This document shows, piece after piece, positions 33,996 through 37,812 of a stretch of DNA of 40,779 nucleotides (position 1 is the first letter of the stretch; every line of letters begins with the position of its first letter). Source of the DNA: Armatimonadota bacterium (GTDB lineage: Bacteria > Armatimonadota > Hebobacteria > CAIYQO01); the NCBI GenBank assembly GCA_029553475.1, contig JAKPKV010000125.1, forward strand, positions 1 to 40,779, given 5' to 3'. The notes beneath the pieces were generated by a model. That model was not told the DNA's origin. It did no database searches and was given only the letters and a program-made list of their open reading frames with translations. A program made the position numbers and the translations under genes.

Positions 33996-34088
33996 ATTTC
34001 TTCCCAACCGGCATGAGGCATGGGGCCTCCACGGTACTGTCCTTTCCAGGGATGACAGACGATATCGCTCGTGAGGAGGGGCGCGAGG

Positions 34089-35516
34089 GTGGTTGCCACG
34101 TCACGCCATCGAGAGTCTTCGCCGTGCATGACGCTCATCGTGCATGCGGACGCCTGCCCGGCGCTCGCGGCGCTGCGCTGCGGGGCGTGGCCGGGCCACG
34201 CCTTCTGCGCGGCGTCGTCGGAGGCGGAGCTGCGGGCGGCGCTGGAAACCCTTCCCCCTGACGTCGGCATCATCTGCGGGTCGCCCGCCGATCCGCGGCT
34301 GCGCCCGCTGCTCGCCGACCTGCGGGCCGCGGCGCCTGACCTGGCGCTGCTCTGGGTGACGGACAGGCCGGACGGCGCCGACCTGCCCGCCGACGCCGTC
34401 ACCCTCCCGTCGCTGGAGCCGGATCGCGGCTTCTTTCACGCGCTGGCGCTGGCGCGCCGGGTGACGCGATCGCGGGAAGAAACCCGGCGCGCGCGGGACG
34501 AGCTGGCGGCGATGCGGGAGCTGGCGGACGAGCTGGCGGATTTGCGCACGCCGGCGGAGATCAGCGCGCGCCTGCTGGCGGCGGCGATGACGCTGCTGCG
34601 TCGGCGTGGATACCAGCCGGCGTCGGGCGCGGTGCTGGCGGCGGGAGAGGGGGCGCAGCTCATCGTGCAGGCGGCGCTGCCGCCGTATGACGCCTGCCTG
34701 GGAGGCGCGCTGCCGCCGTCGCTGAGCGCGGATCTCGCGCAGCTTGTCGAGCATCAGTGCGTGCGCGCCACCGCGACGCAACTGCTCCTCCCCCTGTGCT
34801 GGTACGGCCGCGTGCGCGGCGCGCTGCTCTTGGACGGCCCGGCGCTGCCGGCGGCGCCGCCGGACGGGCTGCGCCTGCTGGCGCGCCAGGGCGCCGCCGC
34901 GCTGGAAGGCGCCGCGCTCTTCGAGCTGGCGGCGATAGATGCCACCACCAGCGCCTACACGCGCACCTTCACCCTGCAGCGGCTGTATGAAACGCTCAAG
35001 TCCGCGTACCGGTCCGGCCTCCATCTCACCATCATGATGATGGACCTAGACAAATTCAAGCTGGTGAACGATACCTACGGCCACCTCGTCGGCGACCGCG
35101 TGCTGCACGCGGCCGGGCAACTGCTGCGCACCACGCTGCGCGAGTCGGACGTGCTGGGGCGCTACGGCGGCGACGAGTTCCTCCTCATTCTCCCCAATAC
35201 CTCCATCGCCGGGGGGATCGAGGTGGCCCGCCGCCTGCTGGAGTCAGTGCGCGCCTTCAGCCTGGAGATCAACGGCGCGCGGCTCACCCTGCAGGTCAGC
35301 ATCGGCATCGGCGGCATCTGCTCGGATGACCAGCCCGCCATCGCCGGCCTACGCCCCGACCAGGCGTTTTTCCATCGCGCCATGGAGCGCCTCATCACCC
35401 AGGCCGACGGGCACATGTACCGCGCGAAGCATGCCCCCAATTCCCCCCATTACGCGGCCGGGCTGCCGATGAGCTGGGGCAGCCTGATCGCGGGCGAAGG
35501 GCTGCTGATGGTGTGA
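34089..35516 (+). CDS. Diguanylate cyclase: receiver-like, GAF-like and GGDEF domains
   Basis: Expected to make c-di-GMP from two GTP in the cytoplasm. The GGDEF domain (about 290-460) is complete: MMMDLDKFKLVNDTYGHLVGD, the active-site RYGGDEFLL (about 358), and RESD just before it as the inhibitory I-site (RxxD). Upstream lie a short receiver-like region (about 14-110, VGIICGSPADP), a coiled segment and a GAF-like domain (about 155-285, LLLPLCWYGRVRGALLLDGP). No phospho-acceptor Asp of a true receiver is obvious. The start is set to GTG 34089 because AGGAGG (34074-34079) is well spaced; ATG 34128 is the alternative. The TGA stop is also the first bases of a foldback repeat. Confidence 0.88.
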   Translation: MVATSRHRESSPCMTLIVHADACPALAALRCGAWPGHAFCAASSEAELRAALETLPPDVGIICGSPADPRLRPLLADLRAAAPDLALLWVTDRPDGADLPADAVTLPSLEPDRGFFHALALARRVTRSREETRRARDELAAMRELADELADLRTPAEISARLLAAAMTLLRRRGYQPASGAVLAAGEGAQLIVQAALPPYDACLGGALPPSLSADLAQLVEHQCVRATATQLLLPLCWYGRVRGALLLDGPALPAAPPDGLRLLARQGAAALEGAALFELAAIDATTSAYTRTFTLQRLYETLKSAYRSGLHLTIMMMDLDKFKLVNDTYGHLVGDRVLHAAGQLLRTTLRESDVLGRYGGDEFLLILPNTSIAGGIEVARRLLESVRAFSLEINGARLTLQVSIGIGGICSDDQPAIAGLRPDQAFFHRAMERLITQADGHMYRAKHAPNSPHYAAGLPMSWGSLIAGEGLLMV

Positions 35517-35683
35517 GAAACTGTCCGAGCAGTCTCAGCGCGTGCCTGCTGGTGGCTTCCGGCCTGGCTCGGCGTTGGCCGTCCTCACCCTATCTCTCTC
35601 CGATAGCGCCTCGTCCGTCCGCCGTGATCCAAGCCGGCATCCCCTCAGCAGCCCCACACCGAGACGGCTCGGACAGTTTCTGA
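35514..35683. repeat. MITE-like foldback element 1, AGAAACT termini
   Basis: The left end AGAAACTGTCCGAGC-a-GTCTC (35516-35536) is complementary to 35661-35681 with one mismatch in 21. Weaker pairing continues through the whole unit (CTGCTG, CCGGC-TGG) to a central hairpin CTATC-tctctcc-GATAG near 35589-35605. It is about 168 bp long. Its first bases TGAGAAACT contain the stop codon of the GGDEF gene. Confidence 0.8.
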
Positions 35684-35705
35684 GGGCCGCGCCCGCGGGC
35701 GGCTA

Positions 35706-35735
35706 TTGCCAAGGCCGGCCTCCGGCGGGTATGAT
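35706..35735 (+). promoter_or_regulatory. Sigma70-like promoter for the MetV-like gene
   Basis: TTGCCA (35706-35711), 18 bp, TATGAT (35730-35735). It lies about 22 bp after foldback element 1 and gives a leader of about 25 nt containing AAGGAGG (35751-35757). Confidence 0.6.
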
Positions 35736-35766
35736 GAGGGCGCCTGACTCAAGGAGGCTTCGCGCG

Positions 35767-36156
35767 ATGTCCGTGATGCAGTGGATTGGTAAGCAGTTTC
35801 ACACCTGCGTGGTGTGGGCCGAATACTGCGGCAAGCACCTGATTTTCGGCTGCCGCATGTGCGGGCAGTGCAAGCTGCACGACCTGGGCATGACCTGCCC
35901 GATGACCTGCCCGAAGCAGTTGCGCAACGGGCCGTGCGGGGGCGTGCGGGCGAACGGCCACTGCGAAGTGAAGCCGGAGATGGAGTGCCGCTGGGTGCGC
36001 GCCATCCGCCGCGCCGAACGATACTGGCCGAAGAGCTGGTGGCGCCCGCGCCACATCAACCCGGCGGTGGACTGGCGGCTGCAGCACACCTCGTCCTGGA
36101 TCAACTACTTGACGAACCGCGACGGGCACGTGGAAGACTACCGGCGCGAGCCGTAA
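35767..36156 (+). CDS. Free-standing methylenetetrahydrofolate reductase C-terminal domain protein (MetV-like)
   Basis: 129 residues, Cys-rich (10 Cys within about 12-78): CRMCGQCKLHDLGMTCP, CPKQLRNGPCGG, GHCEVKPEMECRWVRA. This is the signature of the MTHFR C-terminal/MetV family, a small zinc or Fe-S protein that partners the FAD-containing MetF in some anaerobes and early-branching bacteria to reduce methylene- to methyl-tetrahydrofolate. The ATG is spaced 9 nt from AAGGAGG. metF itself is not in the window. The gene has its own promoter and is bracketed by two related foldback elements, the second beginning in its own TAA stop codon. Confidence 0.85.
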   Translation: MSVMQWIGKQFHTCVVWAEYCGKHLIFGCRMCGQCKLHDLGMTCPMTCPKQLRNGPCGGVRANGHCEVKPEMECRWVRAIRRAERYWPKSWWRPRHINPAVDWRLQHTSSWINYLTNRDGHVEDYRREP

Positions 36157-36322
36157 GAAACTCTCTCAACATGGACCGTAACCGGATTGCGGAGGATTTT
36201 TCGTGTCTGGCAAGGCGGATGTCCGAAGAGTGTATGAGGCCATACATGCTCGGACATCCAACGCGGCCAGGCGCGAAAAAGACCCGCAAGACGGCTGCGA
36301 GACGTGTTGAGAGAGTTTCTAA
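36154..36322. repeat. MITE-like foldback element 2, AGAAACT termini
   Basis: AGAAACTCTCTCAACA (36156-36171) is perfectly complementary to 36305-36320. Imperfect pairing runs through the whole unit (TTTTTCG-G-CTGG, GGATGTCCGA) to the centre, where ATGTCCGA, TGTATG and GGC face GCC, CATACA and TCGGACAT. It is about 165 bp long. The TAA stop of the MetV-like gene merges with its left end (TAAGAAACT). The interior sequence differs from element 1, but size and termini match. Confidence 0.82.
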
Positions 36323-36456: not shown

Positions 36457-37812
36457 ATGCTGACGCGTGATGACGCGCTGAATCTGCTGGACGCGGCGCT
36501 GCGGCATTCGACCGCGGAGCAGACCGAGGTGATGCTGCACGGGAGCGAGCACGGGCTGACGCGGCTGGCGAACGGGAGCATTCATCAGAACGTGCATATC
36601 GCGAACCTGTCGGCGCACGTGCGGGCGGTGGTCGGCCAGCGGGTGGGCGTGGCGTCGTCGAACCGGCTGAGCGGCGACGGGCTGCGGGCGCTGGTGGAGC
36701 GCGCGGTGGCCATCGCGAACGTCTCAGCGCCGAACGCGGAGTTCGACGCGCTGCCCGGACCGGGTGAATATGTCTTCTCCGCGGGCACGCTGGCTTCACC
36801 GGCGCCGGAGATTGACGAAGAGGCCTTTTCGCCCGCCGGGCGAGCGGCGGCGGCGCTGGCGATGATCCACACCGCGCGCGGGAACGGCGCCACCGCGTTC
36901 GGCCACGTCGCGACCGACATCAGCATGCTGGCGGTGGGGAATTCGCGTGGGGTGCGCGCGCATCACGCCTGGACGGCCTGCTCGCTGATGGCGATCGCCA
37001 CCCTGGGCGACGCGTCCGGCTACGCGCAGTGGAGCGGGCGGTCGCTCGCCGGCGCGCCGGCCGGGGAGACGGCGGCGCACGCGGTGAGTAAATGCCTGGC
37101 GGCGGACGTGACGGGCACGGTGGAGCCGGGGCGCTACACCGTCATCCTGGAGCCGCCGGCGGTGGCGGAGATGCTCGGCCTGCTCGCCTATATGGGGCTG
37201 GGCGCCACCCAGTACCAGGAGGGGCGCAGCTTCCTGTCCGGCAAGGTGGGCGAGCGGCTCGTCGGCGAGAACATCACCCTGCGCGACGACACCTACCATC
37301 CGCTTTCCATCGCGCTGCCCTTCGATTTCGAGGGCGTGCCGCGGCAGGTGGTGCCGTTTTTCGAGCGGGGCGTGGCGAAGGGCGTCGTCTACGACAGCTA
37401 TACCGCGCGCAAGGAGGGGCGCGCCTCCACCGGCCACGCGCTGCCCGCGCCGAACACCTACGGGCCGATCCCGCTGCACCTGGTGCTGGAGGGCGGCACG
37501 CGGACGCGTGAGGAGCTGATCGCCGGCGTCGAGCGCGGCATCCTCGTCACCCGCTTTCACTACGTGAATATCGTCCACCCGGCCGAGGCGATCATCACCG
37601 GCATGACGCGCGACGGCACCTTCCTCATCGAGAACGGCGCCGTGACGAAGGCGGTGAACAAATTGCGCTTCACGCAGAGCATGCTGGAGGCGCTGCAGCA
37701 TGTCAGCGATCTCGAGCGCGCCCTCACCCTGGTGAGCGGCGAAGGCATGTACTGCGTGGTGCCGACGCTGCGCATCGAGGGCTTCCATTTCACCAGCGCG
37801 TCGCCGGAGTGA
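36457..37812 (+). CDS. TldD/PmbA family protein, TldE-type
   Basis: A 451-residue member of the TldD/TldE protease-modulator family, which in TldD-TldE heterodimers degrades unfolded peptides and matures modified peptides. Recognisable segments: NGSIHQNVHIANLSAHVRAVVGQRVG, the central EPGRYTVILEPPAVAEMLGLL, and the C-terminal GILVTRFHYVNIVHPAEAIITGMTRDGTFLIENG. The HExxxH zinc site of TldD is absent, so this is the non-catalytic TldE/PmbA-type subunit or a single-protein relative. No tldD gene is adjacent, although the two are often paired. Start ATG 36457 after GGAGGAG; the frame extends back into the repeat element without meaning. Confidence 0.9.
   Translation: MLTRDDALNLLDAALRHSTAEQTEVMLHGSEHGLTRLANGSIHQNVHIANLSAHVRAVVGQRVGVASSNRLSGDGLRALVERAVAIANVSAPNAEFDALPGPGEYVFSAGTLASPAPEIDEEAFSPAGRAAAALAMIHTARGNGATAFGHVATDISMLAVGNSRGVRAHHAWTACSLMAIATLGDASGYAQWSGRSLAGAPAGETAAHAVSKCLAADVTGTVEPGRYTVILEPPAVAEMLGLLAYMGLGATQYQEGRSFLSGKVGERLVGENITLRDDTYHPLSIALPFDFEGVPRQVVPFFERGVAKGVVYDSYTARKEGRASTGHALPAPNTYGPIPLHLVLEGGTRTREELIAGVERGILVTRFHYVNIVHPAEAIITGMTRDGTFLIENGAVTKAVNKLRFTQSMLEALQHVSDLERALTLVSGEGMYCVVPTLRIEGFHFTSASPE

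Follow-up and report, generated by a model that had tools for sequence, protein, structure and literature searches.

Two foldbacks adjoining stop codons in an Armatimonadota genome as probable insertions of a palindromic MITE with TNA target sites

In a contig of 40,779 nucleotides from an Armatimonadota bacterium (the window analysed here), a short MetV-like gene is bracketed by two long palindromes, each of which appears to begin inside the stop codon of the preceding gene. An earlier note, made from the letters of the sequence, had suggested that this arrangement could be a composite mobile cassette, a MITE family targeted to stop codons or a convergent class of 3'-end RNA structures. The locus thus raises the question of what the two palindromes are, and why mobile elements should seem to start in a stop codon.

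The foldbacks and their empty sites

Both foldbacks were found, with the shared AGAAACT termini described previously, at 35514-35683 and 36154-36322, and they are borne out by the sequence, the terminal inverted repeat (TIR) pattern and the folds. The window holds two matches to AGAAACT-N(140-170)-AGTTTCT, a pattern that appeared in none of 100 shuffles, and as RNA of the + strand the first stretch folds at -87 kcal/mol (z = -4.6) and the second at -106.9 kcal/mol (z = -12.8). The elements proper, bounded by GAAACT...AGTTTC, measure 164 bp (35517-35680) and 163 bp (36157-36319), the wider intervals being the element plus both copies of a 3-bp target-site duplication (TSD). What looked like elements that start inside stop codons is this duplication: the stops TGA and TAA stand at their edges as left TSD copies, outside the element. 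The features of the locus are:

34071..35516, + strand: host gene for a GGDEF-domain protein, intact, ending at the first insertion (PF00990, E = 3.2e-36; gene call; G001 orthologue)
35514..35516, + strand: left TSD copy TGA, the in-frame stop of the GGDEF gene (sequence; TSD rule; single copy in the G001 empty site)
35517..35680, - strand: foldback MITE copy 1, subfamily A, 164 bp (TIR pattern; fold; alignment with subfamily A copies)
35681..35683, unstranded: right TSD copy TGA (sequence; TSD rule)
35767..36156, + strand: host gene for a MetV-like / methylene-tetrahydrofolate reductase C-terminal-domain protein, 129 aa (Pfam PF12225 DUF5981, E = 2.5e-23)
36154..36156, + strand: left TSD copy TAA, the in-frame stop of the MetV-like gene (sequence; TSD rule; single copy in the G001 empty site)
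36157..36319, + strand: foldback MITE copy 2, subfamily B, 163 bp (TIR pattern; fold z = -12.8)
36320..36322, unstranded: right TSD copy TAA (sequence; TSD rule)
36457..37812, + strand: downstream host gene of the TldD/PmbA metallopeptidase family (PF19289, E = 3.3e-47; PF01523, E = 1.4e-9)

With a covariance model (R1), built from element copies and used for the genome searches, copy 1 scores 142.3 bits on the - strand and copy 2 scores 149.6 bits on the + strand, in each case the better-folding strand. The interiors of the two foldbacks differ because each comes from a different subfamily and they were inserted in opposite directions; when turned the same way, the copies align end to end and display the same architecture.

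Contig C769 of G001, a genome of the same genus, carries the GGDEF, MetV-like and TldD/PmbA genes in collinear order (83-91% identity), with both insertion sites empty, TGA and TAA each in a single copy and the MetV-like gene between them. The comparison with sister genomes that the earlier note had proposed thus reveals both empty sites and no gain of the MetV-like gene, which was already there, and it follows that the two insertions were separate events and that this gene was not cargo. A composite cassette, with the foldbacks acting as ends that move the enclosed gene, accords with the position of the MetV-like gene between two elements about 480 bp apart; nevertheless, it is refuted by the presence of the gene between empty sites in G001, and the two elements also differ in subfamily and orientation and each have their own, different duplication, which leaves this reading practically no probability. 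We conclude instead that each foldback is a MITE, non-autonomous and palindromic throughout, that inserted independently of the other (probability about 0.9).

The element codes for no protein, is 163-166 bp long and has the terminal inverted repeats GAAACT...AGTTTC. Its own genome (G000; 5.27 Mb in 194 contigs) contains 29 exact copies and many more by DNA similarity, at least 48 matches to the covariance model and, after reading of the loci, about 60 full-length copies. The model matched at least 20 times in G001 and about 40 times in G002, a genome of the same taxonomic family, a few of these matches being the two strands of one palindromic copy; the other 288 of the 291 genomes searched from the phylum gave no match at E<=1e-6. 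The earlier note had seen in solitary palindromes, or in palindromes conserved at these places in distant relatives, an argument against mobility; what emerges is a multi-copy family with the same ends recurring elsewhere, empty sites in G001 and 288 genomes devoid of matches. The subfamily A end, looked for as an exact pattern in the species collection, gave no match, and a literature search of partial coverage surfaced no description of a GAAACT...AGTTTC foldback family.

Target sites and stop codons

Identical 3-bp flanks are present in 67 of 102 full-length copies, and in 66 of these 67 they are of the form TNA (TAA 25, TTA 20, TCA 11, TGA 10). The base outside the duplication is C on the left in 67/102 and G on the right in 66/102, so that the target is TNA with a preferred context of roughly CTNAG. 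The duplication is fixed at 3 bp, no copy having four identical flanking bases. About a third of the copies are without a perfect duplication, as expected for older copies or recombinants.

On one of its two strands any TNA spells TAA or TGA, and each insertion consequently has a stop-like trinucleotide at its edge. This explains why small elements may seem to begin in stop codons when the transposase targets and duplicates TNA. Beyond this, in-frame stops are hit more often than TNA counts predict: on the fetched loci, with genes taken from a simple home-made codon-usage caller that misses some short genes, 19 of 60 insertions in G000 lie at in-frame stops, whereas such stops make up 10.7% of the available TNA sites (p = 9e-6), or 14.0% when weighted for the C/G flank preference (p = 5e-4), an excess of two to three times. 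In G002 the excess is borderline (6/35, p = 0.054). In-frame stops are thus enriched but not required as insertion sites. The stop-targeted MITE family envisaged by the earlier note survives as a MITE, on the evidence of its copies, TSDs and empty sites, with TNA in place of the stop codon as its target.

Recognition of stop codons as such, through targeting linked to translation or its termination, would account for the G000 insertions that fall exactly on in-frame stops, but it is highly improbable in view of the remaining data. About two thirds of the insertions occupy intergenic TNA triplets instead, TTA and TCA are freely used, the better-folding strand runs with the ended gene about as often as against it (14 same, 13 opposite), and the G002 excess is marginal; strict recognition was rejected on this insertion spectrum. 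Moreover, the excess does not call for stop recognition because an insertion at a stop rebuilds the stop and leaves the gene intact, and purging of insertions in genes and promoters may suffice to generate it. Under the proposed mechanism, landing on a stop codon would be harmless, since a TNA always supplies TAA or TGA on one of its strands and the stop is restored, and such sites would come to be over-represented.

Family variants and the origin of the fold

Several variants accompany the full-length copies. Deletion derivatives of 45 and 30 bp retain both ends (L083:2462-2506, L084:2444-2488, L200:1522-1566, L091:2339-2368), and three of these four (L084, L200 and L091) are bounded by a matching TNA duplication. 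The smallest remnants, 11 bp long, consist of GAAAC-T/A-GTTTC, framed by TGA or TCA repeats, and are found at L197 about 1501-1511 (TCA GAAACAGTTTC TCA), at L199 about 1498-1521, where two of them form a nested pair, and, within G000 itself, at C2:121737; they may represent palindrome deletion taken to an extreme. Tandem arrangements, with extra elements adjoining or inserted into the TSD of an existing copy, occur at L012:2104-2266 onward, L181:1501-1830 and L069:1506-1668. Longer variants with about 26 or 53 additional internal bases are represented by L188, L189 (189 bp), L052:522-709 (188 bp), L096 (190 bp), L127 (189 bp), and L136 and L162 (216-217 bp). A separate foldback family, about 163 bp long and bounded by different ends (GCAG...GTCGGATAAAGTC; L110:1501-1663, L328, L329, L330, L331, L333), is present in G056, a genome from another family of the phylum; these foldbacks have an internal motif, GATCGCGC / CAAGCGAGA, in common with the G002 copies. 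Four copies near 1502-1664 of their loci (L045, L047, L048, L055) combine different stems with a common apical tip, about CCCGATAGCATCGGGA, which suggests exchange between copies.

Oriented copies of both subfamilies share one common architecture, with changes on both sides in 35 of 49 consensus pairs and 93.9% paired cells, where shuffles give 72.6% and slid controls 36-42%. In their own alignment the G002 copies have changes on both sides in 20 of 44 pairs, the middle stems being replaced on both sides and the internal loops kept, and the GATCGCG/GCGAGA motif outlasts the replacement of stems, also in a distant family. The fold has a distinct polarity: of 113 copies from three genomes, 110 fold better on the same strand, the mismatches on it are purine-purine (A.G versus C.T, 474:41 in G000, 79:6 in G001 and 301:45 in G002), and the unpaired consensus positions are purine-rich in 6/6 clusters tested (p = 0.0001 to 0.014), these mismatch and purine counts being non-independent as the copies share descent. 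A stricter count, of distinct recent changes on pairs predicted from both strands and hence strand-neutral, gives G.U versus A.C as 37:20 in G000 (p = 0.033), 16:13 in G002 and 6:5 in G001. On this count, a strong case for RNA selection based on recent mutations was dropped, the cell-counted excess being largely due to shared descent. Single copies appear to drift with little strand constraint, and the lineage appears to keep a strand-polarised hairpin. The proposal of convergent 3'-end RNA structures was accordingly wrong on their origin, but it did anticipate an orientation-specific, RNA-like fold, which is conserved inside the elements.

Two accounts of this fold have to be weighed. In one, held tentatively, it is kept by selection on RNA (or on one DNA strand) from active elements, which would constitute a mobile structured non-coding RNA; the covariation across subfamilies and within G002, the constancy of the better-folding strand, the purine-purine character of its mismatches, the purine-rich unpaired positions of the six clusters and the retention of GATCGCG/GCGAGA despite stem replacement, also in a distant family, all point this way. 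The cells behind these figures are not independent, however, and the distinct strand-neutral events display a small bias; the scarcity of G.U intermediates and the many simultaneous double changes fit correction of the palindrome at the DNA level, the argument draws on covariation and strand asymmetry rather than on promoter or transcript evidence, and no Rfam family matched at the gathering score, the hits being weak chance matches. In the other account, equally possible but likewise put forward with reserve, the arms are kept alike by DNA processes, namely template switching within the palindrome and gene conversion among copies, without an RNA function. In its favour, 35 of 47 distinct double-change events in G000 are Watson-Crick and G.U intermediates are few. 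Copies seem to have swapped apical tips, and the arms of a few G002 copies (L203, L208) are apparently mismatched and chimaeric. Such correction would nevertheless erase conserved mismatches, yet the purine-rich loops persist on the same strand in three genomes.

The conserved loops favour RNA-level selection and the scarcity of G.U intermediates favours DNA-level palindrome correction, its main alternative; given the weak strand bias of recent mutations, selection acting on RNA of the active lineage is plausible but not proven. The retention of a long hairpin, with purine-rich internal loops on one strand, suggests that active elements are structurally constrained in their transcript or in one DNA strand, and individual copies seem to drift once inserted. 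It is conceivable, although on balance rather unlikely, that the MITE lineage is a mobile structured-RNA gene, specifying a one-strand RNA with conserved purine loops and freely replaced stems, on which the spread of the element itself or some effect on the host would depend. In that event selection would be keeping an RNA fold through transposition. Because the family numbers more than 100 copies over three genomes, with stems that covary and loops polarised by strand, the choice between RNA and DNA is directly testable.

The candidate transposase and known elements

G000 contains a truncated IS5-family remnant with an end that reads TCA followed by GAAACTGTTTTC... and, about 50 bp later, an N-terminal DUF4096 peptide (MSRKRYPSGLTAAEWGILEPLLPKAKPGGRPRR); its left end is the same terminus as that of the foldback MITEs. 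The remnant matched the DUF4096 profile in the genome search (E = 1e-9), and its 44-aa peptide alone matches Pfam DUF4096 with E = 9.4e-8, just under the curated cut-off, and NCBIfam transpos_IS5_3 below the cut-off. Elements of the IS1031 group prefer TNA and generate a 3-bp repeat (PMC12016507). On the basis of the TNA duplications, the end sequence and this remnant, we infer that the MITEs are likely mobilised by an IS5-family, IS1031-like DDE transposase, which would cut at TNA and duplicate it. No intact transposase or IS element with the ends of the foldbacks was recovered from the own genome or 100 relatives, and the proposal therefore relies on the truncated remnant and the TSD rule; the genomes are fragmented assemblies, from which IS copies are often lost. 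A PF01609 search of the own genome gave one weak match, unlinked to GAAACT ends, and the remnant DNA gave one distant coding match among the 100 relatives, in G002, without GAAACT ends. The IS-like end TNAGAAACTGTTTTCAAA occurs in 117 stretches, but the loci checked have no adjacent DUF4096-like gene, and these are probably chance matches.

By the features tested, the foldback element is a bacterial MITE: it is short and without a transposase gene, and it has terminal inverted repeats, a TSD, dispersed copies and empty orthologous sites. REP/REPIN sequences with their RAYT are palindromic, present in many copies and mobilised in trans, the REP units being moved by Y1 transposases. The foldbacks resemble them in being palindromic and multi-copy. 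They differ in that REP units are 20-40 bp long (PMC3733652), as opposed to a 163-bp foldback with a staggered TNA duplication. The ERIC and Correia/NEMIS MITEs are likewise small, palindromic and intergenic, and as RNA their hairpins can act on mRNA, for example through RNase III (PMC10969869), but they have TA dinucleotide ends (PMC2229807) in place of GAAACT ends within TNA. The nearest look-alike in size and shape, with no relationship implied, is YPAL / RU-2 of Yersinia, a mobile palindromic repeat of about 168 bp that is intergenic and not A+T-rich, has known empty sites and may influence upstream transcripts (PMC2229807). Unlike the foldbacks, with their fixed 3-bp TNA, it has duplications of 3-26 bp (PMC2229807), and its inverted repeats are internal whereas those of the foldback are terminal. 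Elements of the IS5/IS1031 group such as ISLrh are unlike the foldbacks, which are of about 163 bp, protein-less and palindromic throughout; they have in common with them a 3-bp TNA duplication, including insertion at TGA, and the ISLrh end GAACCTGTCT... agrees with the foldback end GAAACTGTCT in 9/10 bases (PMC12016507). The DUF4096-type transposase remnant with the same end in G000 adds to this likeness.
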